NCBI RefSeq assembly: GCF_902506145.1
Contig: NZ_LR733519.1
Location: 1,143,777-1,207,776, forward strand
From: Burkholderia sp. 8Y
GTDB taxonomy: Bacteria > Pseudomonadota > Gammaproteobacteria > Burkholderiales > Burkholderiaceae
Length of the DNA: 64,000 nucleotides
Direction: 5' to 3'
Both the position numbers and the translations under genes were made by a program. Position 1 is the stretch's first letter; every line of letters starts with the position of its first letter. The notes below the pieces were generated by a model. The model was not told the origin of the DNA and made no database searches. It was given only the letters and a program-made list of their open reading frames with translations. This document shows, in pieces, positions 18,692 through 34,937 of the stretch.

Positions 18692-18755
18692 TGCTTCCTT
18701 CCCCCGCTTGTTCCGGGCCCATCGACGCTTTCCATCGACGCCGATCTCCATGTTC

Positions 18756-18774
18756 ATTATGTTAGATATCTAAT
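18756..18774 (-). promoter_or_regulatory. MarR-type operator O1 and -10 of the cluster A operon
   Basis: TTAGATATCTAA (18762-18773) is a perfect 12-bp palindrome. On the minus strand it is followed at once by CATAAT (18761-18756), a five-of-six match to the -10 box. Bound repressor would cover the promoter of the reductase, oxygenase, dehydrogenase, decarboxylase operon, whose first ATG is 65 bp away. It belongs to the set at 20314, 29830, 29975, 34800 and 34924. Confidence 0.72.
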
Positions 18775-18824
18775 TATTCTCAGGCAAGCGGGTTTTCCCT
18801 TAGACTGTGTCGGGCCGTGCAAAT

Positions 18825-18856
18825 GAAAAACGGCGCCTCCAAAGCGAAGACGCCGT
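18825..18856 (-). terminator. Rho-independent terminator after the cluster A permease
   Basis: On the minus strand a GACGGCG...CGCCGTT stem with a loop of about 15 bases is followed by a short T run (AAAAA on the plus strand, 18826-18830). It lies 22 bp after the permease stop and separates the permease transcript from the catabolic operon, which then starts at operator O1. Confidence 0.65.
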
Positions 18857-18877
18857 CCGTGCTGCGAGATTCGATGC

Positions 18878-20230
18878 TCAGGGATGCTGTTCCGCGTGCT
18901 CGCGCAGCGTGTTGGCCGGCACGCCGATCAGCACCGCGAGCCCGCCGATCATGACGATCGCGGCGATCGACGCGAGGCCGATGGCGAGGCTGCCCGTCAC
19001 CGTCTTGATCCAGCCGAGCGCGATCGGGCCGCAGAACGCGCCGACCTGCCCGAGACAACTGATCGCGCCAATGCCCGCGGCGGCGGCGTCATCGGACAGA
19101 TAGGCAGGCGGAATCGACCAGATGATGGCCGCCGCGCCGAAGTACGAAATCGAGATCATGCCGAGACAGACGATGGCCGCCGTGGTATTGCCCGACACGA
19201 CCGGCAGCAGAAAGCCGCCGAGCGCGCCGATTGCCGTGCACAGAAAGAAGTGCCAGCGCCGCTCCAGCGTCACGTCCGAACTGCGCGCCACCGCGAACAT
19301 GCCGAGCGCGCCGATGATGTAGGGCAGCGCCGACAGCAGGCCCACGTTCAGCACGTTCGAGACGCCCGCCTGCCGGATGATGGTCGGCGTCCAGTAGTTG
19401 AGGATCGTGCCGCACAACGGCACCGTGCCCCATCCCGCCGCGAGGATGTACACGCGTGGATCCTTCAGCGCCGCCAGCAGTTGATGCCGCGAGTGTTTCG
19501 CGGGCTTCTTCTCGGCGCGGTCGGCGGCGAGCGCATCGAGGATAATCTTCTTCTGCTCGTCGTCGAGCCAGCGCGCATCCTGTGGCCGGTCCACGAGATA
19601 GAAGAAGGCGACGACGCCCATCACCAGCGCGGGCAGGCCTTCGAGGAAGAACAGCCACTGCCAGTTCTTGTAGCCGAGCACATCGACGAAGTTGTGCAGG
19701 ATCCAGCCCGACAACGGCCCGCCGATGATGCCCGCCGCCGCGATCGCCAGCAGAAAGCGCGACGTGATGCGCGCGCGCCGCGCGCCCGGATACCAGTAGG
19801 TCAGATACAGGATGATGCCGGGCCAGAATCCCGCTTCGGCTGCGCCGAGCAGAATCCGTGCGATGTAGAACTGCGCCGGCGTGGTCATGAAGGCCATCGC
19901 GGTGGAAATGCCGCCCCACAGCACCATGATGCGCGAGATCGTCAGGCGCGCGCCGATCTTCTTGAGCCAGAGCGTGCTGGGCACTTCCAGCAGGATATAG
20001 CCGATGAAGAAGAGGCTCACGCCGAGACCGTACGCGGCATCGGACAAGCCGAGGTCCTGCTTCAGATGCAACTGCGCGAAGCTGACGTTCACGCGGTCCA
20101 GATAGTTGAGCACCCAGCACACGAAGATGAACGACATCAGCCGCCAGGTGACTTTCTGATAAGTGGCCTCGATCCGCGCCGCTGTCGCGTCCGATTCCGG
20201 CATGAATTGCGTGACTGTGGATTTGGCCAC
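18878..20230 (-). CDS. ophD: Phthalate permease-like MFS transporter (cluster A)
   Basis: A 12-helix carrier of about 450 residues from the ACS family, to which the phthalate permeases OphD and Pht1 belong. Helix 1 reads [19 protein letters not shown], and the central loop is charged (about residues 215-250). GTG 20230 is preferred (GGAGA seven bases before it); ATG 20203 is in frame. It is transcribed alone between operator O2 and the terminator at 18825, next to the divergent marR. Phthalate as substrate is inferred from context and family. Confidence 0.86.
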
Positions 20231-20313
20231 CAAACGTCTCCGTTGCCCGTGGTCATGAGGACAATGCGGCGGCACGCGCGGACTTCGCCGCGTCTGCCGT
20301 GCATCCTTGTTTT

Positions 20314-20336
20314 ATTCGATATCTAATGATTATGTT
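20314..20336. promoter_or_regulatory. MarR-type operator O2 between permease and marR
   Basis: ATTCGATATCTAAT (20314-20327) is a 14-bp inverted repeat with a single mismatched pair, nearly identical to O1. On the plus strand it is followed after three bases by TATGTT (20331-20336), a -10-like hexamer for marR. The divergent permease reads away to the left, so one site could serve both genes. Confidence 0.68.
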
Positions 20337-20464
20337 AAGGAGAGCGTGCGCGCGGAACAAGTTCGGGTTTGCACCGACATGTCTTGCGCACCGGTCGGGC
20401 AGTCACGCATGAGACCCACCGGCTATCATGTAAAAGAAACCCGCTTATGGATGAAGATTTCGTC

Positions 20465-21052
20465 ATGACACGAAAGAAAACTGTGGAAGGCGCGCCGCGC
20501 GAGACCGCCGAAATGCTGCGCCACTGGCACGAATCCGTGCCCAACGACCGTCTCGCGCACCTCGTGAAGGACGCCACGCGATCGATGGTCCGCGCCTTGC
20601 AGATGCGGCTCGCGGAGCACTCGGTGTCGTTCGGACACTGGACCTTCCTGCGTATCCTCTGGGAAGCCGACGGCCTCACGCAACGCGAATTGAGCGAGCA
20701 GGCGGGCGTCATGGCGCCCACCACCTTCGCCGCCGTGACGGCGATGGAAAAGCTGGGACTCGTCGAGCGTCAGCAGCGACCGGAGAACAGAAAAAATACG
20801 CACGTCTATCTGACCGCCGAAGGCCGCGCGCTGAAGGACAAGCTCGTGCCGCTCGCGGAGGAAGTCAACGAGATCAGCGTGACGGGACTGAGCGAGCGCG
20901 ACATCAAGACCGCGCGCAAAGTGCTTCTCACGATCATCGAAAATCTGGCCGGCGACGAGTCGGAATCGACGAATCCGCGCCGACGTGTCCTCTCGACCCG
21001 CGAGATCGGCAAGCTCATCGCCGAGCGCGGCGAGAGTCTGGAGGATGCTTGA
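20465..21052 (+). CDS. MarR-family regulator (cluster A)
   Basis: A repressor-type winged-helix protein of about 195 residues. The DNA-binding region spans about residues 60-115 (TQRELSEQAGVMAPTTFAAV helix-turn-helix, then the wing PENRKNTHVYLT). An N-terminal extension and a C-terminal tail of about 40 residues make it longer than typical MarR proteins (about 145). Its paralogue at 35039 shares the same extension, including the pattern ALQMRL...YGHWTFLRILW, so the two form a private subgroup. ATG 20447 is an in-frame alternative start. It most likely binds the TTAG-N4-CTAA sites of both phthalate clusters. Confidence 0.87.
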   Translation: MTRKKTVEGAPRETAEMLRHWHESVPNDRLAHLVKDATRSMVRALQMRLAEHSVSFGHWTFLRILWEADGLTQRELSEQAGVMAPTTFAAVTAMEKLGLVERQQRPENRKNTHVYLTAEGRALKDKLVPLAEEVNEISVTGLSERDIKTARKVLLTIIENLAGDESESTNPRRRVLSTREIGKLIAERGESLEDA

Positions 21053-21244
21053 GCTTGCTTCGACCGGCAAAGGTTTCGCATGTCGCTCAGTGCGGCCACT
21101 CGCGCAATGCGAAGCCCTTGCGCCAGCAGCCGGTGCCGGTTCAATTTTCGAGACTGCTATCTCATCCCTTCGATGATTGAGGTTTAGGGGTAAACATCAA
21201 GCATGCAAGAATTCGTCTCCATATAGTTGGCATACGGAGTATAT

Positions 21245-21258
21245 TCTAGCCACCTAGA
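21245..21258 (+). promoter_or_regulatory. Inverted repeat before the mobA-like gene
   Basis: TCTAGCCACCTAGA is a perfect 5-bp inverted repeat with a 4-bp spacer, 33 bp before the ATG. A -10-like TATATT (21240-21245) lies at its left edge. It resembles the cluster sites (same CTAG-N4-CTAG geometry and the same CCAC spacer as O6) but differs at outer positions, so it may belong to the MarR encoded at 23219. Confidence 0.5.
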
Positions 21259-21291
21259 CGTCATGAGACGTTCATTGATCGAGGACGACCT

Positions 21292-23190
21292 ATGCAGTTT
21301 CATCTTGACGGCTTCCGCGCCGGCGACCCGACGATCCAACCCGCCGCCGGCGCGCACACCGCCGACATGCCCGACACCGTCGACGTGCTCATCGTCGGCA
21401 GCGGCCCGGCCGGACTCGTGCTCGCGGCTCAACTGTCGCAATTCGCGACTATCGCTACCCGTATCGTCGAGCGGCGCTCGGGGCCGCTGCTCATGGGTCA
21501 GGCAGACGGCGTCGCCTGTCGCACCGTCGAGATGTTCGATGCCTTCGGCCTGAGCGACCGCCTGCTGCGCGAAGCATACTGGGTCAACGAAACGGTCTTC
21601 TGGCGGCCCGATTCCAACAATCGCGGTGCCATCAAGCGAACCGGACGCGTTCAGGACACCGAAACAGGTCTCTCCGAATTTCCGCACGTGATCGTCAATC
21701 AGGCGCGGGTGCAGGACTATCTTCTGGATGTCATGCGCCGTTCCGCCCGGCGGCTCGAACCCGACTACGATCTGGAACTCGTGAGCGTCGAGCGCGACGA
21801 CCAGGGCGAGCATCCTGTGCGGGTCACGCTGCGTCGCACCGACGCTTCGCGGCTCGATGAGATCGTTACCGTGCGCGCGCGCTATGTCGTGGGCTGCGAC
21901 GGCGCGCGCAGCCGCGTGCGCGCCGCGATCGGCCAGACGCTCTGCGGCGACGCGGCCAATCACGCGTGGGGCGTCATGGACGCTCTCGCGGTCACGGATT
22001 TTCCGGACATCCGGCTGAAGGCGGCCATCCAGTCCGCGAGCGAAGGCAATCTGCTCGTCATTCCGCGCGAAGGCGGCTACCTGGTTCGCTATTACGTCGA
22101 TCTGGGCGAGGTCACGCCAGGTAATCGCGATGCCATCAAGCAGATCACCGTCGATCGCATCATTCAGACGGCGCAGCGCATCCTGCATCCGTATTCGCTC
22201 GACGTGAAGGAAGTCGCGTGGTTCTCCGTGTACGAGGTGGGCCAGCGTCTGACAGATCGGTTCGACGATGCCATCGCCGCCGACGGCACGTCTCGCGAAC
22301 CGCGCGTCTTCATCGCGGGCGACGCCTGCCATACGCACAGCGCGAAGGCGGGTCAGGGCATGAACGTCTCGATGCAGGACGGGTTCAATCTCGGCTGGAA
22401 GCTCGGGGCCGTGCTGAACGGACTCGGCGACGTCGATCTCCTCTGCACCTATTCCGACGAGCGCCAGCCGGTCGCGCAGGAACTCATCGACTTCGACAAA
22501 GAGTGGTCCGCGATGATGGCCGCGCCGCCCAAAGACCCCAGCCGGCCCGAAGCCGGCGGTGTCGATCCGGCCGAGCTACAGGCGTACTTCGTGCGCGCGG
22601 GACGCTATACCGCCGGCGTCGCGACCCGCTACCAGCCGGCCATGCTGACGGGCGAGCCGATTCATCAGGCGCTCGCGCGCGGCTTTGTGATCGGCATGCG
22701 CTTTCACTCGTCGGCCGTGCTTCGCGCGGCGGATGCGCGACCCGTTCAGCTCGGGCATGCCGCGCGTGCCGACGGCCGCTGGCGTCTGTACGCCTTCGCC
22801 GATGCAGACGAGACCGCGCTTCATGCGCTGTGCGAGCACCTCGCCACGTCGCCGGATTCCGTTCTGCGGCGCGTCACGCCAGACGGCGCCGATCCCGACA
22901 GCGTGCTCGACTTGCGCGCGGTGCTCCAGCGCGACCACCGCGATGTGCGGCTCGAAGACATGCCGGGACTGCTCCTGCCGCGCAAGGGCCGCCACGGGCT
23001 GATCGACTACGAGAAAATATTCACGAGCGACGCCGTCACTGATATCTTCGACGAGCGCAGGATCGACCGCGAACGGGGCGCGCTGGTCGTGGTCCGTCCG
23101 GATCAGTACGTCGCGCACGTCCTGCCATTGGACGCATACTCGGAACTGGAGAGCTTCTTCCGGCCGATTTTTCCGCGCGCCTTCGCTTGA
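21292..23190 (+). CDS. mobA: 3-hydroxybenzoate 4-monooxygenase-like flavoprotein
   Basis: A 632-residue FAD monooxygenase of the phenol 2-monooxygenase/MobA group, which hydroxylates a phenolic acid with NADPH and O2; MobA makes protocatechuate from 3-hydroxybenzoate. The FAD dinucleotide motif VGSGPAG is at about residues 35-41, the DG motif GCDGARSRVR at 201-210, and the GD motif AGDACHTHSAKAGQGMN at 342-358. The last about 180 residues form the thioredoxin-like domain of this group. AGGACGACCT precedes the ATG. A marR follows 28 bp after, the arrangement described for mobA/mobR. Another hydroxybenzoate or a phenol cannot be excluded as substrate. Confidence 0.85.
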   Translation: MQFHLDGFRAGDPTIQPAAGAHTADMPDTVDVLIVGSGPAGLVLAAQLSQFATIATRIVERRSGPLLMGQADGVACRTVEMFDAFGLSDRLLREAYWVNETVFWRPDSNNRGAIKRTGRVQDTETGLSEFPHVIVNQARVQDYLLDVMRRSARRLEPDYDLELVSVERDDQGEHPVRVTLRRTDASRLDEIVTVRARYVVGCDGARSRVRAAIGQTLCGDAANHAWGVMDALAVTDFPDIRLKAAIQSASEGNLLVIPREGGYLVRYYVDLGEVTPGNRDAIKQITVDRIIQTAQRILHPYSLDVKEVAWFSVYEVGQRLTDRFDDAIAADGTSREPRVFIAGDACHTHSAKAGQGMNVSMQDGFNLGWKLGAVLNGLGDVDLLCTYSDERQPVAQELIDFDKEWSAMMAAPPKDPSRPEAGGVDPAELQAYFVRAGRYTAGVATRYQPAMLTGEPIHQALARGFVIGMRFHSSAVLRAADARPVQLGHAARADGRWRLYAFADADETALHALCEHLATSPDSVLRRVTPDGADPDSVLDLRAVLQRDHRDVRLEDMPGLLLPRKGRHGLIDYEKIFTSDAVTDIFDERRIDRERGALVVVRPDQYVAHVLPLDAYSELESFFRPIFPRAFA

Positions 23191-23218
23191 TCCTTCGCCC
23201 GTTCCTGACTTAGCCAAA

Positions 23219-23662
23219 TTGCCGACCAGAGAAAACAACTCCCACGCGCTGTCGAAATACACGGGCAGCCTCGTGCGCCGCGCGCAGCAACGCCATGTCG
23301 CCGTGTGGCTCGCCGAGGTTTCCGCCGAAGTCACGAGCGTGCAGTACGCGGCGCTCGAAGTGCTGCACAGGACGCCCGGCGTCAATCAGCGGCAGCTTGG
23401 CGACGAGCTGGACGTGGACCGCTCGACCATCGCCGATCTGGTCGCGCGCATGGTTCGCAATGGCCTTGTCGAACGCGCGGACGATGCCGCGGACAAGCGC
23501 AGCTATGTCCTTTTCCTGACGCCGGCCGGGAAGAAGCAGCTTGCGACGCTGCGTCCGCGTGTCGAGGAAGTCGAGCGCATTCTCACGGCAAGGCTCACGC
23601 CGCGCGAATGCCTCGAACTCAGACGGCTGCTGTCGGCGCTTCTGCCGATGGATGAAACGTGA
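23219..23662 (+). CDS. MarR-family regulator, MobR-like
   Basis: A 147-residue MarR protein of ordinary length, with the winged helix-turn-helix at about residues 48-105 (NQRQLGDELDVDRSTIADLV, then the wing DDAADKRSYVLFLT). The start is taken as TTG 23219 (LPTREN); no strong ribosome site is present and no better start is near. It lies 28 bp after the mobA-like gene and probably controls it. It does not share the long N-terminal arm of the two cluster MarR proteins. Confidence 0.82.
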   Translation: MPTRENNSHALSKYTGSLVRRAQQRHVAVWLAEVSAEVTSVQYAALEVLHRTPGVNQRQLGDELDVDRSTIADLVARMVRNGLVERADDAADKRSYVLFLTPAGKKQLATLRPRVEEVERILTARLTPRECLELRRLLSALLPMDET

Positions 23663-23695
23663 CGCGGGCGCGCCGCCTGATCGACAATCACGCGC

Positions 23696-24199
23696 TCAAA
23701 TCTTGCGCCTGAGCACGATGGGCTTTCCGCCCATGGTTCGCTTCGTCATCCAGGCGGCCAGCGCGGAATCGAGGTAGTCCGCGTGTCCGGGAAACCACGC
23801 GAAAAGCGACCGTCCGAGATCCCGCACCAGTTCGGCGCTGCCCAGGCCCTGCCGCACCGCCTCTTTCACTTCGCGCACCGACTTCAGCACGGCGGCGTGC
23901 TCGTCCAGATGGCAGTCGCGCGGCGGAAAGTTCGTCGAGCGCATCCACTCGTCTTCCTGCTCGAAATGGTCGACCGCATGCTGCTCGAACGCTTCCATCG
24001 CCGACATGGCGGTGGCGTCGGTGCACGTCACCAGTTCCAGCGCGACGGCGTAGAACTCCTCGTGCACATCGTCCATCGGTGTGAAGCCCAGCAGGCGGTC
24101 GTCGGACCAGGCGAGGCTTTCATCGCTGGAGCGCGTGGGCGCGCGCTCGTCCGTCATGCGCGATGCTTCGTCGCGGATCGTGTGAGTGTCGTCTTGCAT
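23696..24199 (-). CDS. Bacteriohemerythrin
   Basis: A 167-residue four-helix bundle oxygen-binding protein with a di-iron centre. The ligand pattern is visible: His46, His78 and Glu82 (HFEQEDEWM), His97 and His101 (HLDEH), then His139 and Asp144 (PGHADYLD). An N-terminal extension of about 30 residues precedes the domain, and MTDERAP at 24157 is an alternative start. It may buffer O2 or sense it for nearby oxygenases, which is an inference from neighbourhood only. Confidence 0.88.
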   Translation of the reverse strand: MQDDTHTIRDEASRMTDERAPTRSSDESLAWSDDRLLGFTPMDDVHEEFYAVALELVTCTDATAMSAMEAFEQHAVDHFEQEDEWMRSTNFPPRDCHLDEHAAVLKSVREVKEAVRQGLGSAELVRDLGRSLFAWFPGHADYLDSALAAWMTKRTMGGKPIVLRRKI

Positions 24200-24256
24200 G
24201 ATGTCTGTGTGTCGATTTCACGCCGCACCGCGCGGGCGCGGCGTGACTTTCATCGC

Positions 24257-26329
24257 TCATAGCAAGCCGTGCGTCGCCGCGCGCAGCGCCGGAACCATGT
24301 TGCCGAGCAACGACTGCGGCCAAGTGATCGCGAAGATGCGGTCGAAGACCACCCACAGCGCGACGGTCATGATCACCGACATCAGCACGGACGTCTTCCA
24401 GCGTTCGCCGAACTCCAGGCGCGCGAGCAGCGCCATCGCGATCAGGAGCGCGGGCAACAGGCCGATGCCGTATGCAACGGCGAGCGCGCCGGCGAGCCAT
24501 CCGAAGAAGCGCAGGCCGCGATTGCGCACAAGTTGCGGCGGCACGGGTGCCGCGTGGCGCGGCTGCATGATTTCATGTCCGGCGACGCCCGACGCATCCG
24601 GCGAAGGCCCGGCCTCGGAAACGCCGCCTTCGACCGACACGATCTGCCGCAGGAACACCAGCGAGCAGAACAGCAGCGCGGCGGTGGCTGCCGTCATCGG
24701 CATGAGCTTCGCACCGAAATTCCAGTTGCGCGCGGACCCGATCGCGGCAGCCGGAATCAGCACCATCACCAGCGCGAACAGCGTGCGGTGATCGAAGCGA
24801 CGCACGGTCCATCGACCCTTCGGGCGGCTCACGGCGGTCTTCGGCGTTCCGTTCCGCAGGTTCCGATACCCGCGCCGCACGAGCGGACCGATCACGACCC
24901 ACAGCGCCGCCAGCAGCACGACCAGCACGACCGGCCGGCCAAAGAAGTGCGTGCCGTAGACTTCGGTGGAAATGAAGTAGTAACGCTCGCACATGCTGCC
25001 GAGCACCATGCCGAGAATCAGCGGCGGACGCGGCCAGCCGAGACGTTTCATGATCCAGCCGAACGCGCCCGACAGCACGAGCGAGCACAGATCGCCCCAG
25101 CTCATGCTCGCGTTGAACGCGCCCAGGAAGATGATCGCGAGGATCAGCGGCAGCAGCACGCCGACCCGCACCGTCGCGAGCTTCGCGAAGAGGCCGCTGC
25201 CGGACAGACAGATGACCGCGCCCATGACGTGCGCAATCGTGAGCGTCCAGATGATCGTGTACGTGACGTCAAGATGCCGCGTCAGCATTTCCGGGCCGGG
25301 GGTGAACCCGTGCATCATGAATGCGCTCAGGAGCAGCGCCATGGATGCGCCGGCCGGCATGCCGAACGCAATCGTCGGAATGAGGTGGCCGCCCTCTTTC
25401 GCGTTGTTCGAGCTTTCCGCCGCGATCACGCCGCGAATGTCGCCCTTGCCGAAGGTCTCGGGGTTCTTTTCCGTGCGCAGCGCGTGCGCGTAGGCCATCC
25501 AGTCGATTACCGCCGATCCGATGCCGGGCACCGCTCCGAGCAGCGCGCCGAGGCTGCTGCATCGCAGGATGAGCCACCAGTTGCGCATCGCGTCGCGAAT
25601 TCCGTCCCACTGGCTGCCTTTCGCGATGCCCGGCTCGGTGTCGCGCGCGATGCTCGTCCGCTCGATCGCCATGTCGACCAGTTCGGGAATCGCGAAGATG
25701 CCGAGCGCGACGGGAACGAGCGGCAGATGGTCCCACAGATAGAACGAACCGAAAGTCCAGCGCAAGGTGCCGGTTTGCGGATCGGAGCCGACGAGCGAGA
25801 GCATCAGCCCGAACGATGCAACCGCGAGCCCCTTGAGCGGCGCGTTGCCGCTCAGCACCGCGATCATCGACAGCCCGAAGATGCAGAAGGCGAGCAGTTC
25901 CGCCGAGCCGACATACAGCACGACGGTGCGCAAAAAGGGCAGCAGCACGGCGAGCAGCACCGCGCCGAAAATGCCGCCCGACAGCGACGCCATGTAGCCC
26001 GAGCCGAACGCGCGCGCGGCCTGGCCCTTGCGCGCCAGTTGATGGCCGTCGAGCACGGTCGCCGCCGCGCCCACCGTGCCGGGCACGCCGAACAGCACCG
26101 CCGGGATGAGGTCCGACACCGTCGTGACCGCCGCCATGCCGAGCAGCAGCGCGAAGGCCGTGTAGCCGTCGAGGTGATAGGTGAACGGAATGAGGAGCGC
26201 GAGACCGACGATTCCGCCGAGACCCGGCACCACGCCGAGCGCGAGACCGAGCACGACGCCGCCGAGCATCGTGAGCAGGCGCATCGGATCCGTGACGATG
26301 GCGAGCGCATGGAGGGCCGCTTCAATCAT
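24257..26329 (-). CDS. Fused TctA-TctB tripartite tricarboxylate transporter membrane protein
   Basis: A 690-residue inner-membrane protein. Residues about 1-490 are a full TctA large subunit, with the family motif GVVLGLALGVVPGLGGIVG near the start and repeated glycine-rich loops. The last about 190 residues add four hydrophobic helices of the TctB type (FALVMVLIPAAAIGSARNWN, then FERWK-like linkers), which is usually a separate gene. ATG 26329 with GAGG eight bases upstream is preferred to the longer frame. With the periplasmic receptor at 27289 it makes a complete TTT system. The neighbours suggest an aromatic di- or tricarboxylate as substrate. Confidence 0.86.
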   Translation of the reverse strand: MIEAALHALAIVTDPMRLLTMLGGVVLGLALGVVPGLGGIVGLALLIPFTYHLDGYTAFALLLGMAAVTTVSDLIPAVLFGVPGTVGAAATVLDGHQLARKGQAARAFGSGYMASLSGGIFGAVLLAVLLPFLRTVVLYVGSAELLAFCIFGLSMIAVLSGNAPLKGLAVASFGLMLSLVGSDPQTGTLRWTFGSFYLWDHLPLVPVALGIFAIPELVDMAIERTSIARDTEPGIAKGSQWDGIRDAMRNWWLILRCSSLGALLGAVPGIGSAVIDWMAYAHALRTEKNPETFGKGDIRGVIAAESSNNAKEGGHLIPTIAFGMPAGASMALLLSAFMMHGFTPGPEMLTRHLDVTYTIIWTLTIAHVMGAVICLSGSGLFAKLATVRVGVLLPLILAIIFLGAFNASMSWGDLCSLVLSGAFGWIMKRLGWPRPPLILGMVLGSMCERYYFISTEVYGTHFFGRPVVLVVLLAALWVVIGPLVRRGYRNLRNGTPKTAVSRPKGRWTVRRFDHRTLFALVMVLIPAAAIGSARNWNFGAKLMPMTAATAALLFCSLVFLRQIVSVEGGVSEAGPSPDASGVAGHEIMQPRHAAPVPPQLVRNRGLRFFGWLAGALAVAYGIGLLPALLIAMALLARLEFGERWKTSVLMSVIMTVALWVVFDRIFAITWPQSLLGNMVPALRAATHGLL

Positions 26330-26425
26330 GACCGCTGCCTCGACCGGATACCGATGGCGCACGCGGCGTCACGCGCGCGCGCCGAATCACGATGAACCGA
26401 CATATCCGCTGTCTCCGTTTAGCGT

Positions 26426-26471
26426 GCAGCCGCTCCCGGCCGGTCCCGCGAGGGAGACCGGAGACGGCTGC
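26426..26471. repeat. Long hairpin between the aldolase and transporter genes
   Basis: GCAGCCG (26426-26432) pairs with CGGCTGC (26465-26471), and inside it CCGGTC (26440-26445) pairs with GACCGG (26456-26461). No T run follows on the transcribed minus strand, so it is more likely an RNA processing or stability element than a terminator. It sits in the roughly 200-bp gap between the two cistrons. Confidence 0.4.
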
Positions 26472-26528
26472 CGCATGTTCTGTTTTGTTTGAAGCCGCTG
26501 TCACGCAACCGCGAACGCCGGCGTTCTC

Positions 26529-27230: not shown

Positions 27231-27288
27231 GAAAAATCCTCTCCAGTTGAGCGATGGAGCGCCGCTCCACCGCTGGGCCGCCACCGGC

Positions 27289-28359
27289 CTACATACGTCC
27301 GCCCACCGCCGCCTTCGCCTTCGCGATCTGATCGGCTGGCGTCTTGTACAGATCGTCGAGCACCTCGCTGATCCGCTCCGGCGAAACGGGGCGTACCTCG
27401 ATGCCGAGACTCTTCGCCTCCGCGAGGAACGCCGGGTCTTTCACCGTGTCCCCGAACGCCTTGCGCAAGGCGTTGGCGCGCTCCGGCGGCAAGCCCGGCG
27501 GCGCGGCGAAGGGACGGGCGAACGCCTGGCTCGCCGCAATGACCTTGAGCACCTGACGCGTCGAGTTGTCCTGCGAGAGATCGAGCAGCAGCGGCACGTT
27601 CGGCAGATCCGGGTGCTTTTCCAGCGCCATCTGCACGATCAGGTTCACCTTGTGGTCGCGCAGCCAGTCCGGGTGCCGCATCTGGAGCGTGCTCCACGAC
27701 GTGCCGCATTCGCCGTCGATTTCCCCGCGCTCCATGGCGAGCGCACTTTCGTTGCTGCCGGGATAACCGGTCACGAGTTGCAGCTTCGCGTGAAAGAGAT
27801 TCTTGATGGCCGACGCCATCACGTCCGGGTCCGAGCCCGCGCCCTGTCCGCCGAAGCGCGACGGCTTCGTCAAGAGGTCCTGGAAGGTCTTGATCTTCGA
27901 ATCCTTCCAGGTGACGCAGAGCGCGACGTCGCTATCCATGCTGCCGAGCCAGACCAGCTTGCGCGCATCGAAGTCCGCCTCGCCCAGAAGCGGCTCTTCC
28001 GGCATGGTGCGTCCGAAGGTGCCGATCGTGGAACCGTCCTTCGGCGCCACGTTGTACAGATAATTCGCCGATTTCAGGCTGCCCGCGCCAGGCATGTTCT
28101 GCGGCGTGATCGTGGGTTTGCCCGGCAGATGATCGCCGAGATGCTTCGCGAGCAGCCGCGCATACATGTCGTAGCCGCCGCCGACCGAATAGCCGATCGT
28201 CATGTTCACCGACCGGCCGCTGTAGAAGTCCTCCACGCTTTCCGCGTGGCTGGCTCCCGCCAGGCAGGCCGTGGCCACCGTCAGGGTGGACAGGACTCGG
28301 CGCCAGTTGCGAGGTGCGCGTGGAGCATGCGCGTGGTTGCCCTGCGTTGCATCGTTCAT
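27289..28359 (-). CDS. Tripartite tricarboxylate transporter receptor (TctC/Bug type)
   Basis: A 356-residue periplasmic binding protein. An Arg-containing signal peptide of about 42 residues ends in GASHA; the mature part has the Bug-family pattern SVGGGYDMYARLLAKHL and the downstream ITPQNMPGAGS loop that contacts the carboxylate ligand. TGGAGAC lies upstream of ATG 28359. It follows the Rieske oxygenase by about 95 bp and delivers ligand to the TctAB fusion at 24257. Confidence 0.87.
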   Translation of the reverse strand: MNDATQGNHAHAPRAPRNWRRVLSTLTVATACLAGASHAESVEDFYSGRSVNMTIGYSVGGGYDMYARLLAKHLGDHLPGKPTITPQNMPGAGSLKSANYLYNVAPKDGSTIGTFGRTMPEEPLLGEADFDARKLVWLGSMDSDVALCVTWKDSKIKTFQDLLTKPSRFGGQGAGSDPDVMASAIKNLFHAKLQLVTGYPGSNESALAMERGEIDGECGTSWSTLQMRHPDWLRDHKVNLIVQMALEKHPDLPNVPLLLDLSQDNSTRQVLKVIAASQAFARPFAAPPGLPPERANALRKAFGDTVKDPAFLAEAKSLGIEVRPVSPERISEVLDDLYKTPADQIAKAKAAVGGRM

Positions 28360-28455
28360 CGGTGTCTCCATCCATGTCTGGCGGATAGGCGGGTTGCGGT
28401 CGCCCGGTCGCGGCTGTCTTGCGCGCAACCGGTGTCGCCGTCCCTGTCCCGGTAT

Positions 28456-29730
28456 TTATTTGAAGTCGTGCGCGAGGTCTTTTTCGGTCTTTCCTTCGTA
28501 GACGTGCACGAGATCCTGCGCGATCGGCGAGTAGCGCGCGTGGGTGCGCAGCATGAAACTCGCGAAGCCGTCGCTGTTGTGGTGCTTCTTGCGCTCGTTC
28601 GGCAACTCGATGCACTCGTTCTGCCGCGGATCGCGCACGATGCCCATCGGGTCCTGGCCCTCTTCCACCTTGCGCATTTCCCGCCGCAGCATCTTTCGGT
28701 ACATCGCAATGCCCTTGTCGGTCGAGCCGAGGTTCTCGCGCGTGCGGTCGGCGATCGTGCCCTGCGTGATCCACGCCATGATGTCCTGACCATCGACGTT
28801 ATCGACGATGAACTCGCCCTTCTCGTCCTTGAACGGCACCTCGTAGACGTGCACCTTGTCGTAGAGACGCGCGGGCACGTCCGCGGTCTTCGGCGGCAGA
28901 TACGCGTTGTACCAGAGGTGCATGGTGTTTTCGTCGTCCACCGGCACGCGGATCTGGAACGAGTAATAGCGCGTCGCCTCGTCGCCGTTGCCGACCGCGA
29001 GCATGTTCGGGAACACGATCGGATGGCCGATCCGCCAGTCGTCCGAATCCTCGGAATGCCCCTCCAGCAGGCGATGCTTCGTCATGCCGTACTGGAACTC
29101 GTTGAAGTCGATCTTCTCGTGACGCGTGCTGATCGCGACCTTCACACCTTCCTGTTCCTTCAGGAATTCGTAGTGGTGGCCATGCAGCCATTCCGTGTGG
29201 ATCGGATCGAGCGAGTTCTCCATGATCTGCAGCCAGTTGATCGGCAGCATCGCGCGGCCCATCATGCGGATCGCGCCCTTCGCGACGAAGCCGTCGAAGC
29301 GCGGCAGCAACGGACGCGGCTCCGGCCCCATGTACGCAAATAGCAACCCGCCGAGTTCCTCGACGGCGTAGGCGTCCGTCGCGACCTTCTCGCGGAAGGC
29401 CGGATTGTCCGGCTCGTTGGGCTGGCTCAGGCACTTGCCAGCGCCATCGAATTCCCAGCCGTGATACGGGCAGCGAATGCCCTTTTGCGTCGGAATGCCA
29501 TGCATGAACGAGGCGCGCCGATGCGGACATTGCTCGGCGATGAGACCGAGCGTTCCCTCCCGATTGCGGAACAGCACCAGGTCTTCGCCGAGGAGCCGCA
29601 CGCGCTTCGTCCAGAGGCCATCCATTTCCGCTGCCGCTCCGATGGGCTGCCAGTAACGGCGCAGCAGATTGCCCATCGGCGTTCCCGGCCCCACGCGGGT
29701 CAGCGTTTCGTTCTGTTCAGCAGTCAACAT
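28456..29730 (-). CDS. Rieske ring-hydroxylating oxygenase, phthalate 4,5-dioxygenase-like (cluster B)
   Basis: A 424-residue oxygenase. Rieske ligands are Cys68/His70 (CPHR) and Cys87/His90 (CPYHGW); mononuclear iron ligands are Asp175, His178 and His183 (DPIHTEWLH). Both oxygenases start MLT..., but this one is about 17 residues shorter than the cluster A enzyme and differs widely in the substrate domain, so the preferred isomer or substituent probably differs. AGAGGGAA precedes the ATG. It is the first gene of a minus-strand unit with the TTT transporter and aldolase, divergent from the dehydrogenase at 30072, with operator O3 on its -10 box. Confidence 0.88.
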   Translation of the reverse strand: MLTAEQNETLTRVGPGTPMGNLLRRYWQPIGAAAEMDGLWTKRVRLLGEDLVLFRNREGTLGLIAEQCPHRRASFMHGIPTQKGIRCPYHGWEFDGAGKCLSQPNEPDNPAFREKVATDAYAVEELGGLLFAYMGPEPRPLLPRFDGFVAKGAIRMMGRAMLPINWLQIMENSLDPIHTEWLHGHHYEFLKEQEGVKVAISTRHEKIDFNEFQYGMTKHRLLEGHSEDSDDWRIGHPIVFPNMLAVGNGDEATRYYSFQIRVPVDDENTMHLWYNAYLPPKTADVPARLYDKVHVYEVPFKDEKGEFIVDNVDGQDIMAWITQGTIADRTRENLGSTDKGIAMYRKMLRREMRKVEEGQDPMGIVRDPRQNECIELPNERKKHHNSDGFASFMLRTHARYSPIAQDLVHVYEGKTEKDLAHDFK

Positions 29731-29823
29731 ACGGTTCCCTCTGTGTTCTGGCGATCGAATCAGTCGTGATGCCCGGTGTGTCCCGCCAGCCCCGCGGCGA
29801 CTTCCCGGCTCCTCGCGACCAAT

Positions 29824-29843
29824 ATTATACTTAGGTGACTAAG
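29824..29843 (-). promoter_or_regulatory. MarR-type operator O3 and -10 of the cluster B oxygenase
   Basis: CTTAGGTGACTAAG (29830-29843) has perfect 5-bp arms around GTGA. On the minus strand a perfect -10 box, TATAAT (29829-29824), follows with no gap; TTATTG 17 bp upstream is a weak -35. This geometry matches O1, where CATAAT follows the palindrome. Confidence 0.78.
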
Positions 29844-29961
29844 CAACAATAATGGAAAACACCTAGACATCGTCATCCGCAGATCGGTCCGCTCATGATG
29901 TGCTGCTGCACGAGACGCGGTGCCAGCCGACGCACATTCCGGTCCACGAAAGTCGTCATAA

Positions 29962-29996
29962 TTGACAACATAAGCTTAGGAAGCTAAGTTTATGTT
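29962..29996 (+). promoter_or_regulatory. MarR-type operator O4 and promoter of the cluster B dehydrogenase operon
   Basis: A perfect -35 box, TTGACA (29962-29967), is followed by CTTAGGAAGCTAAG (29975-29988; arms perfect around GAAG), then TATGTT (29991-29996). A -10 at 17-bp spacing would be TAAGTT, overlapping the operator; TATGTT is at the same place as in O2. Either way the operator occupies the promoter. The first gene starts at 30072. Confidence 0.76.
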
Positions 29997-30071
29997 AACC
30001 GACTGATTTGTTATCTGGACCGACGCGCGCGAGCGAGATCAACGTCTGTGTCCGCATCTGGAGAACCGTTC

Positions 30072-31322
30072 ATGAACGCAGCCACACGCCCGAACGCCAC
30101 CAAGGACCGACTGCGGCTCGGCATGGTCGGCTTCGGCGCCGCTGCCCGCGCATTCCTGCCGGCGCTCGCGCACGACCCTTCGTTCGTGTTGACGGCTGTC
30201 GCCGATCCCGTCGAGTCCGTACGCGCGGAAGCCGCCGAGACGCTAGGCGTCGCGGCCTACGACCGCATCGAGGCGCTCATCGACCATCCCGGCCTCGACG
30301 CGGTGTACGTCGCTTCGCCCACGCAGCTGCATCGCGAGCATGTGGAGCTGGCGTGTCGCGCGGGGAAACATGTGCTCGTGGAAAAGCCGATGGCGGTCAG
30401 TCTCGCCGACGCGCAATCGATGGTGGATGCGGCGGCGCGAGCCGGCGTCGTGTTGCTCGTGGGCCATTCGCACAGTTACGACGAGCCCGTTCACGCAATG
30501 CACACGCTGATCGAAGGCGGTTCGCTCGGCCGTGTCCGCATGGTGAACACCTGGTGCTACACCGACTGGGTCTATCGTCCGCGTCGGCCTGATGAACTCG
30601 ACGACCGCGAAGGCGGCGGCGTGACGATCCGGCAGGGCGCGCACCAGTTCGACATCATTCGGCTGCTGTGCGGCGGAAAAGCCAGCAGCGTGCGCGCGAA
30701 GACGTTCGACTGGGACCCGCAACGCCGTGCGACCGGCGCGCATACCGTGTTCATCGATTTCGAAACCGGCGCGGCGGCGACGGCCGTCTATAACGGCTAT
30801 GGACGCTTCTCCAGTGCGGAGCTGCACGGCGGCATCGGCGAATGGGGTTTCGAAGCGCCCCGACGCGGTCACACGCGAAACCGCGCGGCCGGCTCGCCGG
30901 AGGACGAACTGCGCGCCAAGCAGGCACGCGCGAAGCACGCGATTCCCGGGCGCGCGCCGCATCAGCCGCACTTCGGCCTCACGCTCGTCAGTTGCGAGCG
31001 CGGCGAGATTCGCCAGTCGCCGGACGGCCTCCTCGTCTACACGGACGACGGCGTGACGCCCGTCGCCTTGCCCACGGACACCTCGCCGCGCGAACGCGTG
31101 ATAGCCGAATTCCACGATGCGATCACCGGACGCCGCGCCGCGCTGCACGACGGTCACTGGGGCCTCGCCAATCTCGAGGTCTGCCTCGCGGCGTTGCGCT
31201 CGTCGCGTGAAGGCCGCGAGATCGCGCTCACCCGGCAACGCGCGCCCGCCACGCACGACTTCGCTTTTGCATCGCGTTCGGGACCGAATTCACCTCAGGA
31301 GACGCCGGCACGACCGGAATGA
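30072..31322 (+). CDS. ophB: Dihydrodiol dehydrogenase, Gfo/Idh/MocA family (cluster B)
   Basis: A 416-residue paralogue of the cluster A enzyme at 15180. The Rossmann motif GMVGFGAAARAF is at about residues 18-29 and EKPMAVSLADA at about 102-112; the segment WCYTDWVYRPRRPDELDDRE aligns with [20 protein letters not shown] of cluster A, a shared region outside the cofactor site. TGGAGA before ATG 30072 sets the start. It would rearomatise the dihydrodiol made by the cluster B oxygenase. The reductase gene overlaps its end by 4 bp. Confidence 0.85.
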   Translation: MNAATRPNATKDRLRLGMVGFGAAARAFLPALAHDPSFVLTAVADPVESVRAEAAETLGVAAYDRIEALIDHPGLDAVYVASPTQLHREHVELACRAGKHVLVEKPMAVSLADAQSMVDAAARAGVVLLVGHSHSYDEPVHAMHTLIEGGSLGRVRMVNTWCYTDWVYRPRRPDELDDREGGGVTIRQGAHQFDIIRLLCGGKASSVRAKTFDWDPQRRATGAHTVFIDFETGAAATAVYNGYGRFSSAELHGGIGEWGFEAPRRGHTRNRAAGSPEDELRAKQARAKHAIPGRAPHQPHFGLTLVSCERGEIRQSPDGLLVYTDDGVTPVALPTDTSPRERVIAEFHDAITGRRAALHDGHWGLANLEVCLAALRSSREGREIALTRQRAPATHDFAFASRSGPNSPQETPARPE

Positions 31323-32344
31323 CGAACATGACGACCACGACCCTCCAGGAAACCGGCGAAGGCCGCGCGCTATCGGACGAAACGCTCGTGCAGGGCACAT
31401 TGCGGCTCGAAGTCACCGACAAGATCGCGGTGGCCGACGGCATCTACTTGTTCGAATTGCGGGCGCCCGACCGCCAGCCGCTGCCGCCCTTCACCGCTGG
31501 CGCGCACCTTCTGGTGCAAACGCCGGCGGGCATCGCGCGGCGTTATTCGCTATGCAATGCGCCCACCGAACGCACGCGCTATGTGGTGGCGGTCAAGCTC
31601 GATCCCACGAGCCGCGGCGGCTCGACCAGCATGATCAACGACGTGAAAGTCGGCATGCGCGTGACCGTGTCGCTGCCGGAAAATTACTTCGCGCTCACCG
31701 ATCAGGCATCCGACTATCTGCTGATCGCGGGCGGCATCGGCATCACGCCATTGCGCGCGATGATGGCGGAACTCGATGAGCGCGGCGCGCATTACCGCAT
31801 CGTGTATTGCACGCGTTCGCGGGAGACGTCCGCCTTCATCGAGGAACTCTCCGCGCTGCCGGCAGAACGCGTCACGATTCATCACGACAACGGCAACCCT
31901 GAGCAGTCGTTCGACTTCGTGCCGCTCTTCGCGACGCGCAACGCCGACACGCACGTCTATTGCTGCGGCCCTCGCCCGCTCATGCGAGCCGTGCGCGAGG
32001 CGGCCGCGCACTGGCCGCATGCGAGCGTGCACTTCGAAGACTTCGGCACGAGCGTCACGCCGCAAGCCGGCAACGCCGGCGAAGGTAGCTTCGTCGTCAA
32101 GCTCAGGCGCAGCGGGCGTAGCATCGACGTCGTGCCGGGACAAAGCATTCTCGAGGCGTTGCGGGCAGCGGGCGTCGAGACGCCGAGTTCGTGCGAAGCG
32201 GGAACGTGCGGCGCGTGCCGGACCACGCTCTGCGGCGGCGTGGCCGATCACCGCGACTTCGTGCTGGACGACGACGAGCACGACAGCGCGATCATGATCT
32301 GCGTCTCGCGCGCGAAGTCGGACGAACTGATACTCGACCTTTGA
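31319..32344 (+). CDS. ophA1: Phthalate dioxygenase reductase-like protein (cluster B)
   Basis: A 341-residue iron-sulfur flavoprotein of the same family as the cluster A reductase. The flavin motif RRYSLCN is at about residues 75-81, the nucleotide motif GGIGITPLRAM at about 138-148, and the ferredoxin ligands are Cys292, Cys297, Cys300 and Cys328. The ATG overlaps the dehydrogenase stop (ATGA); ATG 31328 is a second option. It lies on the opposite strand from the oxygenase it would serve, unlike cluster A. Confidence 0.88.
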   Translation: MTNMTTTTLQETGEGRALSDETLVQGTLRLEVTDKIAVADGIYLFELRAPDRQPLPPFTAGAHLLVQTPAGIARRYSLCNAPTERTRYVVAVKLDPTSRGGSTSMINDVKVGMRVTVSLPENYFALTDQASDYLLIAGGIGITPLRAMMAELDERGAHYRIVYCTRSRETSAFIEELSALPAERVTIHHDNGNPEQSFDFVPLFATRNADTHVYCCGPRPLMRAVREAAAHWPHASVHFEDFGTSVTPQAGNAGEGSFVVKLRRSGRSIDVVPGQSILEALRAAGVETPSSCEAGTCGACRTTLCGGVADHRDFVLDDDEHDSAIMICVSRAKSDELILDL

Positions 32345-32361
32345 CACTGGCAGGAGACACA

Positions 32362-33354
32362 ATGAGCAAACTGCAGCTTTCGATCGCCGTCGGCAACTAC
32401 GACCGGATGCGCCCGCTCGTGGACGGCGAAGTTCAGATGGAGGGCGTCGATCCTGTCTTCATGTTGCAGGATCCGGAAGAGATCTTCTTCCGGGCGCTGC
32501 GGCACGCGGACTACGACATCTGCGAACTCTCGCTCAGCAGCTATTCGGTGAAGACCGCCGCCGGCACGTCGCCGTATGTCGCCGTTCCGGTGTTTCCTTC
32601 GCGCGCGTTCCGGCACACGTCCATCTACATCCGGTCGGATCGCGGCATCGAGCGTCCGGAGGATCTGAAAGGCAAGCGCATCGGGGTGCCCGAATATCAG
32701 TTGACCGCCAACGTCTGGGTGCGCCTCTTTCTGGAAGAGGACTACGGCGTGAAGGCGTCCGATGTGACGTGGGTGCGAGGCGGCTACGAAGACGCCTCAC
32801 GCGTCGAAAAAATCTTGCTTAGCTTGCCCGGCGACGTGCGGCTCGAAAACGCCCCGGAAGGCCGCACCATTTCGAGCCTGCTCGAAACCGGCGAAGTGGA
32901 TGCCGTGATCGGCCCGCGCGCGCCTTCGTGCTTCGATCGCGGCGCGCCGAACGTGAAGTACCTCTTTGATGCCCCTCATGCCGCAGCCGCCGACTGGTAC
33001 CGGCGCACGTCGCTCTTTCCGATCATGCATACGCTCGGCATCCGGCGCACGCTGGTGGAAGCGCATCCGTGGCTGCCGGCCTCGGTGGTGAAGGCATTCG
33101 AGAGATCCAAGGCCGTCGCGCTGACGCGGTTGGGCGATACGTCGGCGTCGAAGGTGACGTTGCCGTTCGTGGAGGATCAGTTGCGCGCCGCCCGTGAACT
33201 GATGGGCACGGACTTCTGGGCATACGGCTTCGCCCCCAACGAGCACGTGCTGAATCGCTTCCTGAAGCGGCATCACGAGGAATCGCTGTCCAGCCGGCTG
33301 CTGACCGCCCAGGAACTGTTTCACCCGTCGAGTCTCGAGACCTTCAAGATCTGA
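32362..33354 (+). CDS. ophC: 4,5-dihydroxyphthalate decarboxylase-like protein (cluster B)
   Basis: A 330-residue protein of exactly the same length as the cluster A decarboxylase and closely similar end to end, including an identical stretch GNYDRMRPLVDGEVQ and the same C-terminal ESFKI/ETFKI ending. It lacks a signal peptide. CAGGAGAC lies before the ATG, 17 bp after the reductase stop. It is the last gene of the dehydrogenase, reductase, decarboxylase operon, closed by the terminator at 33374. It would form protocatechuate or an analogue. Confidence 0.87.
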   Translation: MSKLQLSIAVGNYDRMRPLVDGEVQMEGVDPVFMLQDPEEIFFRALRHADYDICELSLSSYSVKTAAGTSPYVAVPVFPSRAFRHTSIYIRSDRGIERPEDLKGKRIGVPEYQLTANVWVRLFLEEDYGVKASDVTWVRGGYEDASRVEKILLSLPGDVRLENAPEGRTISSLLETGEVDAVIGPRAPSCFDRGAPNVKYLFDAPHAAAADWYRRTSLFPIMHTLGIRRTLVEAHPWLPASVVKAFERSKAVALTRLGDTSASKVTLPFVEDQLRAARELMGTDFWAYGFAPNEHVLNRFLKRHHEESLSSRLLTAQELFHPSSLETFKI

Positions 33355-33373
33355 CCGGCTGCATCGCACAGGA

Positions 33374-33408
33374 AAAACGCGGCCCGGCATGCACATGGGC
33401 CGCGTTTT
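33374..33408. terminator. Bidirectional rho-independent terminator
   Basis: AAAACGCGGCCC (33374-33385) and GGGCCGCGTTTT (33397-33408) form a perfect 12-bp stem around an 11-base loop. The A run and T run give it function on both strands, between the convergent decarboxylase and porin genes. Confidence 0.85.
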
Positions 33409-33432
33409 CTTGTTCGCGGAAGGGCGGCTGCG

Positions 33433-34620
33433 TCAGAACCGCTTCTGAATCCCGAGCCGCACGTACGCCTGATGGTTCGTCGAAGACGGCGTGATGTTGT
33501 AGATCGACGCGACCGCTTCGCGGCCCGTCGAATCCGTGCCGCTCGCCTTCTGATAGATGCCGATCATATACAGCTGCGTCGTCTTCGAGAGCGAATAGGA
33601 AGCGCCCACGCCCGCCTCGTTGTAGCTCGCGCCCGTGTGCCCGCTCACGCCGGACGTCTTGGTGTACTGATACACCGCGCCGAGCAGCACGCTCGGCATT
33701 GCCTGCCACGTCACGTTGAACTCGCCCGTGTTGAACCGGGCCGTTCCGCCGATGCCGCCCGCCGGCACCGGTCCGGCCGAGCGATCGCCCAGGCCGCGAA
33801 ACTGCGTGTTGGAATAGTTGGCGGCCAGCAGTACGGGCCCGACCTGATACTGCGCGCCCACGGCAAGCGCCTGCAAGGAATGCGCGGACGCGAACCCCGT
33901 CGTCACCGGTGAGCCGCCGAAGTTCGCGCCAGGCACGCCGCCCGTCGTGGCGGCGGGCGAACCCGTGTCACCCCAGAAGGACACGTTCGGCTCGCGTACG
34001 TTCAGATAGCCGACGGCCGCCGCGAACGGTCCGTGTTTATAGCCCGCGCCCACCGAATAGATCTGGTTGCGCGTGACATCGCCCGCCACGCCGCCCAGGC
34101 TGTACAGGCCGCCTAGCCTGAAGCCGCCGTAGTCCTGGCTCATGTACTTGATGGAATTGTTGACGCGATTCGTGTGCGCCATCTGGTCGACGTCGCCGGG
34201 GTGCGCGAGCGGAGGACCGCCCCAGGTGTTGGCCACGGCGAACGGGTTGACGAATTCCACGATGGCGTCGTACTGGCGGCCCAGCGTCACCGTGCCGAGC
34301 GACTGGCTCGACAGCCCGACATACGCCTGCCGGCCGAACATCAGACCGCCCTGTCCCAGCCTGCCGTTCGTGATGTCGAATCCGTTCTCCAGCCGGAAGA
34401 TGGCGGAGAGACCGCCGCCGAGATCTTCCTTGCCGAGCAGGCCGAAGCGGTCGCCGTTCAGCATGCCGGACGTCATGTTGTAGAGCTGCTTGCCGTTCGC
34501 GTTGCTCTGATAGTTGATGCCGACGTCGAGCAAGCCATAGAGCGTCACGCTGCTTTGCGCGCTGGCCGCGCCTGCGAGCCCCAGACCGCCCGCGAGGACG
34601 ATCCATTTTTTAGCCTTCAT
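33433..34620 (-). CDS. Gram-negative porin (cluster B)
   Basis: A 395-residue outer-membrane porin. A 22-residue signal peptide ends in ASAQ, the mature N-terminus reads SSVTLYGLLDVGINYQSN, and the C-terminus is RF. GGAGGAGA before ATG 34620 gives an excellent start. It lies between the cluster B operon and marR, and its promoter region contains operator O5, so it likely lets the aromatic diacid cross the outer membrane. It belongs to the same family as the porin at 1332. Confidence 0.92.
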   Translation of the reverse strand: MKAKKWIVLAGGLGLAGAASAQSSVTLYGLLDVGINYQSNANGKQLYNMTSGMLNGDRFGLLGKEDLGGGLSAIFRLENGFDITNGRLGQGGLMFGRQAYVGLSSQSLGTVTLGRQYDAIVEFVNPFAVANTWGGPPLAHPGDVDQMAHTNRVNNSIKYMSQDYGGFRLGGLYSLGGVAGDVTRNQIYSVGAGYKHGPFAAAVGYLNVREPNVSFWGDTGSPAATTGGVPGANFGGSPVTTGFASAHSLQALAVGAQYQVGPVLLAANYSNTQFRGLGDRSAGPVPAGGIGGTARFNTGEFNVTWQAMPSVLLGAVYQYTKTSGVSGHTGASYNEAGVGASYSLSKTTQLYMIGIYQKASGTDSTGREAVASIYNITPSSTNHQAYVRLGIQKRF

Positions 34621-34799
34621 TTTGTCTCCTCCGTTGAAAACCCTGCCGATCAGCAAAGCTAACGAACTCGCTGATCGCTTCGCCGGCGCGCGAATCCGCA
34701 TGCGGGCGCGCATCCGGCTTCATGCCCGGCTGAAAGACCCGCCGCGCCAAGCAGCAGCCGGGCGCCGGCATCGGCCTCGCGCATCTTCGACCATATTTT

Positions 34800-34820
34800 C
34801 TTAGATACCTAATTTATAAT
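34800..34820. promoter_or_regulatory. MarR-type operator O5, marR/porin intergenic region
   Basis: CTTAGATACCTAAT (34800-34813) is close to O1 and is followed after one base by a perfect -10 box TATAAT (34815-34820) on the plus strand, towards marR. On the minus strand, towards the porin, TATAAA overlaps the same bases. One bound regulator could silence both genes. Confidence 0.72.
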
Positions 34821-34923
34821 CTATACGGCATGACGGAGCGCGTCAACAGCGTTGTTGTAGGTTGAATCGCGCAACCGCGGCCATGCAGTGCGGTGTCCTC
34901 ATCGCGGGAAAATCGATTTTTTG

Positions 34924-34937
34924 CTTAGCCACCTATC
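34924..34937 (+). promoter_or_regulatory. MarR-type operator O6, imperfect
   Basis: CTTAGCCACCTATC has one perfect arm (CTTAG) and a degenerate second arm, in the leader about 100 bp before the marR start. It may be a secondary site for autoregulation. The spacer CCAC is the same as in the repeat before the mobA-like gene. Confidence 0.5.

Follow-up and report, generated by a model that had tools for sequence, protein, structure and literature searches.

MarR-type repressors are known from the control of aromatic catabolism. In Sphingobium sp. SYK-6, DdvR represses ligXa and ddvT, and the aromatic substrate ends the repression (PMC6874591); DesR of the same strain represses aromatic catabolism via inverted repeats (PMC6888825). 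HcaR, CouR, and PcaV are ligand-released MarR repressors of aromatic-acid pathways (PMC5487221), and the consensus operator of SlyA is TTAGCAAGCTAA, or TTAN6TAA (PMC5797941). The isophthalate/terephthalate clusters of Comamonas are regulated by the repressor IphR and the activator TphR (PMC13040137). In this study, 64,000 nucleotides of Burkholderia sp. 8Y (GCF_902506145.1, NZ_LR733519.1, positions 1,143,777–1,207,776, forward strand; hereafter, the window) were analyzed for the palindromic operator pattern TTAG-N4-CTAA (12-bp core), found exactly or with one mismatch at six sites, S1–S6, in a stretch of ~16 kb (positions 18,756–34,937 of the window). The sites accompany two phthalate-type gene clusters, cluster A (with the oxygenase gene at 16373 and linked to marR A) and cluster B (with the oxygenase gene at 28456 and linked to marR B). 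Their sequence, placement, and conservation suggest that they are probably the operators of two paralogous MarR-family repressors, one per catabolic cluster. The sites are as follows:

S1, 18762..18773: TTAGATATCTAA, upstream of the cluster A reductase gene, exact core match
S2, 20315..20326: TTCGATATCTAA, in the divergent promoter region of the major facilitator superfamily (MFS) gene and marR A, one mismatch
S3, 29831..29842: TTAGGTGACTAA, upstream of the cluster B oxygenase gene (- strand), exact core match
S4, 29976..29987: TTAGGAAGCTAA, upstream of the cluster B Gfo/Idh/MocA gene (+ strand), exact core match
S5, 34801..34812: TTAGATACCTAA, between the porin gene and marR B, exact core match
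S6, 34925..34936: TTAGCCACCTAT, between S5 and marR B, imperfect, one mismatch

Exact TTAG-N4-CTAA occurred four times in the window against 0.07 expected, and none of 100 shuffled sequences reached four. Sites with at most one mismatch were exactly S1–S6, with no others (2.96 expected). The six positions had been given correctly in a preliminary description of the window. Its statement that the six repeats share the same geometry holds for the four exact matches, but S2 and S6 carry one mismatch each, and six equal sites were therefore rejected in favor of four exact and two one-mismatch ones.

In the whole genome (6,283,819 bases), exact TTAG-N4-CTAA was found eight times, four of them inside the 16-kb stretch. 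A genome scan had been suggested in the preliminary description as a check on random density; done here in exact-match form, without a position matrix, it favors real sites. As to the other four matches, L001 and L002 overlap a reading frame at its 3' end, L007 lies between frames, and L008 is situated where only frames of 85–96 amino acids were listed. The reversed control pattern occurred 64 times in the same genome, i.e., TTAG-N4-CTAA was outnumbered about eightfold by its own letters in reverse order, and the control was also the commoner pattern in every one of 16 related genomes. Per genome, 0–12 exact sites and 46–115 control matches were counted in 16 further genomes. The sole exact site of one genome (G081) was the S1 equivalent, and two genomes with MarR A relatives of 78–79% identity (G009 and G197) had four and six exact sites, all of them outside the 7 kb analyzed around marR.

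For promoter placement, a -10-like hexamer was defined by a match to the consensus at at least 4 of 6 positions, with A at position 2 and T at position 6. Such a hexamer, on either side, was found 0–3 bp from the site at 6/6 sites, compared with 7.7% of 2098 AT-rich background positions. The promoter elements are as follows:

18756-18761, - strand: -10-like hexamer CATAAT, abutting S1
20328-20333: -10-like hexamer GATTAT, 1 bp downstream of S2
29824-29829, - strand: -10-like hexamer TATAAT, 1 bp from S3
29962..29990, + strand: S4 promoter, with -35 hexamer TTGACA (29962-29967), 17-bp spacer, and -10 hexamer TAAGTT (29985-29990)
34815-34820, + strand: -10-like hexamer TATAAT, 2 bp from S5

The five -10-like hexamers named in the preliminary description (CATAAT, TATGTT, TATAAT, TATGTT, and TATAAT) are present; measured from the 12-bp core, their distances are 0, 4, 1, 3, and 2 bp. 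At S4, TTGACA-N17-TAAGTT is the best promoter-like pair on the + strand; the left half-site lies inside the spacer and the right half-site is overlapped by TAAGTT. The pair was found in the same places in 9/9 Caballeronia relatives, and this conserved promoter differs from the hexamer named earlier for S4.

Based on site placement and on what is known of the MarR family (PMC5487221, PMC5797941), a MarR dimer would place one recognition helix on each TTAG half-site. With the half-sites inside the spacer between the -35 and -10 hexamers, or adjoining or overlapping the -10 hexamer, RNA polymerase would be kept off the promoter, and a pathway ligand (a phthalate-type acid or an intermediate) would release the repressor. 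Since S2 is in the divergent MFS/marR A region and S5 and S6 are upstream of marR B, autorepression is likely.

Relatives of MarR A were searched at E ≤ 1e-20 and found in 59 of 299 family genomes, the window's own included; 30 loci were listed, one being the window. Among these, the S2 form TTCGA[T/G]ATCTAA was present at all 19 relatives of 84–97% identity, 142–161 bp upstream of marR. Of 20 longer stretches around MarR A relatives, 18 carried cluster A and two did not (L087 and L088), and S2 was kept in all 18 with the cluster. S1 was exact at the equivalent position in 16/17 relatives and had one mismatch in L072 (L070 was incomplete and not judged). The S1 and S2 equivalents were the sole sites with at most one mismatch in ~7 kb in 16/17 relatives, L081 having one more. 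Among the ten listed relatives of 70–79% identity, four (L033, L034, L036, and L038) had a looser site with one to two mismatches, e.g., CTAAATCTCTAATAAAAT, 48–53 bp past the matched stretch, and one (L037) had an exact site ~1.4 kb past it.

The cluster B sites were compared in nine Caballeronia B-type loci. Two exact sites with identical flanks, equivalent to S3 and S4, precede marR in 9/9, and the oxygenase gene is on the other side of the paired sites in 8/9, with no oxygenase match in L097. A third exact site precedes the porin gene in all eight loci with a porin match (L097 had none), and additional one-mismatch sites were present in L093, L094, and L098. The gene order in Caballeronia, with marR B between the S4 equivalent and the Gfo gene, differs from that of the window, where the Gfo gene adjoins S4. 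In a genome of another genus (G144), four exact sites were found in B-type loci, together with one one-mismatch site before a second marR B; the same 40 kb had four further one-mismatch matches, two of them before A-type genes. At one locus of this genome (L090), A-type genes adjoin the B-type cluster, and two variants of the site with CTAG precede them.

The window's gene order from the oxygenase to the MFS gene was found in Paraburkholderia tagetis (L125), with equivalents of S3–S6. The S4 equivalent is before the Gfo gene, as in the window, and the S5 equivalent is TTAGCTACCTAA, followed 2 bp later by TATAAT. The S6 equivalent is TTAGGTAACTAT, situated after TTTTTTGC, with the imperfect CTAT half retained, and the S5 and S6 equivalents are 122 bp apart, compared with 124 bp in the window. 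Beyond these four, L125 contains three more sites, one exact and two with one mismatch. Another reductase gene (50% to the cluster B one) is located ~5 kb from the oxygenase gene and is preceded by two sites.

A wider test was made on 80 of at least 574 cluster B oxygenase loci, 938,143 bases in all; five of the 80 appear to come from genomes already in the Caballeronia comparison. The 400 bp upstream of the oxygenase contained 42 exact TTAG-N4-CTAA sites versus 0 and 0 for two control patterns, and all 938,143 bases contained 49 versus 14 and 13. A MarR A/B relative near the oxygenase was called by tblastn at E ≤ 1e-8. An exact upstream site was present in 24 of 33 loci with such a relative and in 6 of 47 without (Fisher P 7e-8, a value not to be taken literally, as the 80 loci share ancestry). 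When only loci extending 3 kb or more upstream and 4 kb or more downstream of the oxygenase start were counted, a site was found in 23/30 with and 4/35 without MarR. The proposal in the preliminary description that the promoters in cluster A and cluster B contain repressor-type operators, likely to be bound by MarR A and MarR B, thus gains support from conservation and MarR linkage. In two Oxalobacteraceae loci (L133 and L153), TTCGG[T/C]ACCTAA replaces the TTAG form at both sites and the MarR helix reads EPTAFG, not EPTTFS; these operator and helix differences are possibly a matched change.

The sites could also be bound by another protein, such as a global SlyA-type regulator or the product of a third MarR gene (23219-23662), which is situated between the clusters beside a phenol-hydroxylase-type flavin adenine dinucleotide (FAD) monooxygenase gene (21292-23190). 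The core equals the general SlyA consensus, and one related oxygenase locus (L145) carries TTAGCAAGCTAA exactly. However, the scan of the 64-kb window found no TTAG-N4-CTAA with at most one mismatch near the third MarR gene, sites occur together with MarR A/B relatives in the neighborhood of the oxygenase gene, and five genomes of the genus without MarR A or MarR B have 0, 1, 1, 3, and 4 exact sites genome-wide. Another binder is therefore very improbable.

Whether the two regulators share one operator was assessed with an A model and a B model, for which the training sites (35 A and 26 B) came exclusively from relatives; both were run again at larger pseudocounts. The A model ranked S2, S1, and S5 on top in the window, with S2 first; the B model ranked S5, S1, S3, and S4 on top (S5, S3, S4, and S1 at the larger pseudocount) and S2 at 5–7, which is background level. 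S1 scored 29.9 in the A model and 21.5 in the B model, and S5 scored 21.5 and 24.4, respectively. Hence S1 and S5 fit both models, S2 fits A only, and S3 and S4 fit B only. A C immediately before the core was found in 25/26 B sites and 0/35 A sites of relatives, and in the window in 4/4 B sites (S3–S6) and 0/2 A sites (S1 and S2), and N4 was ATAT in 33/35 A sites of relatives. The A dialect may thus be written as TT[A/C]GATATCTAA preceded by A or G (S1 and S2), and the B dialect as CTTAG-N4-CTAA with a free centre (S3, S4, and S5, with S6 imperfect).

The regulators divide likewise. In the regulator tree, A and B were placed in separate clades (100/97 at the midpoint root; 37 rows in A and 35 in B; some branches are long, and gene L154 was entered twice). 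The recognition helix was APTTFAAV in 18/19 close A relatives (QPTTFSAV in L028) and EPTTFSAL in 9/9 Caballeronia B-type proteins. A one-residue code is not supported, since L029–L032 belong to the A clade, have E at the helix position, and have no such upstream site. Each dialect also persists without the other regulator: A sites are kept in 11 genomes that lack a B-type regulator, B sites in two that lack an A regulator (G030 and G227, with one flank base altered in G227). Of the 17 genomes in which both A sites could be judged, in the six with both regulators, TTAGATATCTAA was found at S1 and TTCGATATCTAA at S2 in 6/6, and in the 11 without a B-type regulator, in 9/11 and 10/11, respectively.

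The preliminary description had read the sites as one operator shared by both MarR proteins, with the clusters cross-regulated. The identical 8-base core in both site sets, the good scores of S1 and S5 in both models, and the presence in one genome of two regulators that are 57% identical would agree with such a switch; so would the three A-operator departures (two at S1 and one at S2), all in genomes without a B regulator and none in the six with one, which are too few to weigh. The claim was weakened, however, by S2, S3, and S4 each fitting one model only, by the persistence of each dialect in genomes lacking the other regulator, and by the recognition helices differing by clade. A shared switch is not supported beyond S1 and S5, and cross-regulation of the clusters appears unlikely. 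The shared core probably goes back to the common ancestor of the two regulators and does not count as evidence of joint control. With few recognition-helix differences and two dialects, the A/B pair offers a clean natural case for studying cross-talk of MarR paralogues in one cell.

Several observations weigh against S1–S6 being operators of MarR A and MarR B. None of the ten listed MarR A relatives of 70–79% identity had a site with at most one mismatch between -400 and +100. In the wider test, 9 of the 33 loci with a MarR relative had no exact upstream site and 6 of the 47 without one had it. The number of independent sequences behind the models is small (12 unique A and 9 unique B 18-mers). 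S6 scored low in both models, ranking 6–7 in the B model and about 30 in the A model, and its equivalent was absent from the alignment with copy 2 of G144; a reading of S6 as a weak site on these grounds is reversed by the P. tagetis equivalent. Finally, 9 of 100 shuffles reached six sites at one mismatch or fewer, so the window count is not above chance, and as the six-site count alone is not significant, the case rests on the exact count, placement, and conservation. The shuffles would suit chance palindromes in AT-rich promoter DNA, but exact sites are far above expectation and rare in the genome, 42 of them stood upstream of the 80 oxygenase loci against none for either control pattern, and the conservation of position across other species and genera contradicts chance, which is hardly credible as the origin of the sites.

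With the sites taken as MarR A and MarR B operators, a possible member of the B regulon in trans was noted in Caballeronia. Among the places listed, an exact site precedes an ATP-binding cassette (ABC) permease gene (573 amino acids, PF00528; L100–L103 and L108–L115) in four Caballeronia genomes with cluster B (L100–L103). In 24 selected genomes, nine with a Caballeronia B-type locus and 15 others, close relatives of the permease (82–100%) were found in eight of the nine, G232 being the exception, and in none of the 15 others, one of which has a 32% relative. An exact site was upstream of the gene in 7/8 genomes carrying the close relative. In the eighth (G227), no exact site was found upstream of it, and the gene is ~10 kb from marR B. 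The window's genome had no permease match at E ≤ 1e-80.

The genes of the two clusters are as follows:

16373..17698, - strand: cluster A Rieske oxygenase, phthalate-dioxygenase type (PDB 7fjl, E 2.2e-244)
17717..18757, - strand: cluster A reductase, longest frame, with Fer2 and nicotinamide adenine dinucleotide (NAD)-binding domains
18878..20275, - strand: cluster A MFS transporter (TIGR00893, 451 bits, cut-off 395)
20465..21052, + strand: marR A, MarR family, linked to cluster A (PF01047, 47.6 bits, cut-off 24.6)
28456..29730, - strand: cluster B Rieske oxygenase, a distant relative of phthalate dioxygenases (7fjl, E 1.2e-48)
30072..31322, + strand: cluster B Gfo/Idh/MocA dehydrogenase (PF01408)
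33433..34713, - strand: cluster B porin, downstream of S5 (PF13609)
35039..35620, + strand: marR B, GTG start, MarR family, linked to cluster B (PF01047, 46.7 bits, cut-off 24.6)

MarR A and MarR B are 57% identical over 147 residues. Both are below the cut-off of the SlyA equivalog NF002926 (26.8 and 32.8 bits versus 120) and are thus not SlyA by NCBIfam. The cluster A oxygenase matched, in addition to 7fjl, which we take to be the phthalate dioxygenase of Comamonas testosteroni KF1, the entry 7fhr, 'Putative Phthalate 4,5-dioxygenase' (E 7.8e-68). Both cluster oxygenases have the Pfam domain PF19301 (LigXa_C). A domain scan detected the reductase domains and an NMT1-like protein in cluster A; the latter is presumably a 4,5-dihydroxyphthalate decarboxylase, a name that no curated family gave. 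Judged by its oxygenase matches, cluster A belongs to the phthalate dioxygenase type. The longest reductase frame begins at 18757, 4 bp from S1. Since 15/17 relatives align only from residue 15–23 onward, the true start is probably inside this frame.

On a broader scale, we lean slightly toward TTAG-N4-CTAA being common, as an operator, to an ancient MarR lineage that controls clusters with LigXa/phthalate-type oxygenases, both in Burkholderiales and in some Alphaproteobacteria. This lineage would have split into A and B with matching changes of helix and operator flank, the B branch reaching the ABC permease gene in trans in Caballeronia. A well-supported computational operator for the MarR regulators of these widespread aromatic-acid oxygenase clusters may be useful for regulon finding and for phthalate-type biosensors.

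Among the known systems, IphR and TphR are both IclR-type. They are comparable to the regulators studied here in that they regulate phthalate-isomer clusters (PMC13040137). HcaR, CouR, and PcaV are alike in family and in the ligand release proposed for MarR A and MarR B, and unlike in their pathways. The operator of DesR is GTTTGTGT[C/A]ACATAC, not TTAG-N4-CTAA (PMC6888825). Auxin-degradation MarR regulators were rejected as a source of the motif, as the main text of PMC9613470 contains neither 'motif' nor 'TTAG' nor 'CTAA'. A description of a MarR operator of phthalate clusters was not found among the titles and abstract openings searched, a coverage that leaves out most papers of subscription journals.

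The preliminary description had stated that no description of the motif was known. The motif is, however, the SlyA consensus, TTAGCAAGCTAA or TTAN6TAA, and the SlyA operator of enterobacteria has the same TTAG-N4-CTAA half-sites, the same 12-bp length, and a MarR-family binder (PMC5797941). S1–S6 belong to the long-known SlyA/MarR operator type, as probable MarR operators of a known kind and not an undescribed motif. Unlike SlyA, the regulators studied here are below the SlyA cut-off and located in catabolic clusters, and the sites resemble those of local repressors. DdvR acts on another substrate in another bacterium, and the likeness to it is one of setting. It is a MarR-type repressor of LigXa oxygenase and transporter genes, and both oxygenases of the window are of the LigXa_C type; DdvR is the closest precedent in setting for the two clusters.

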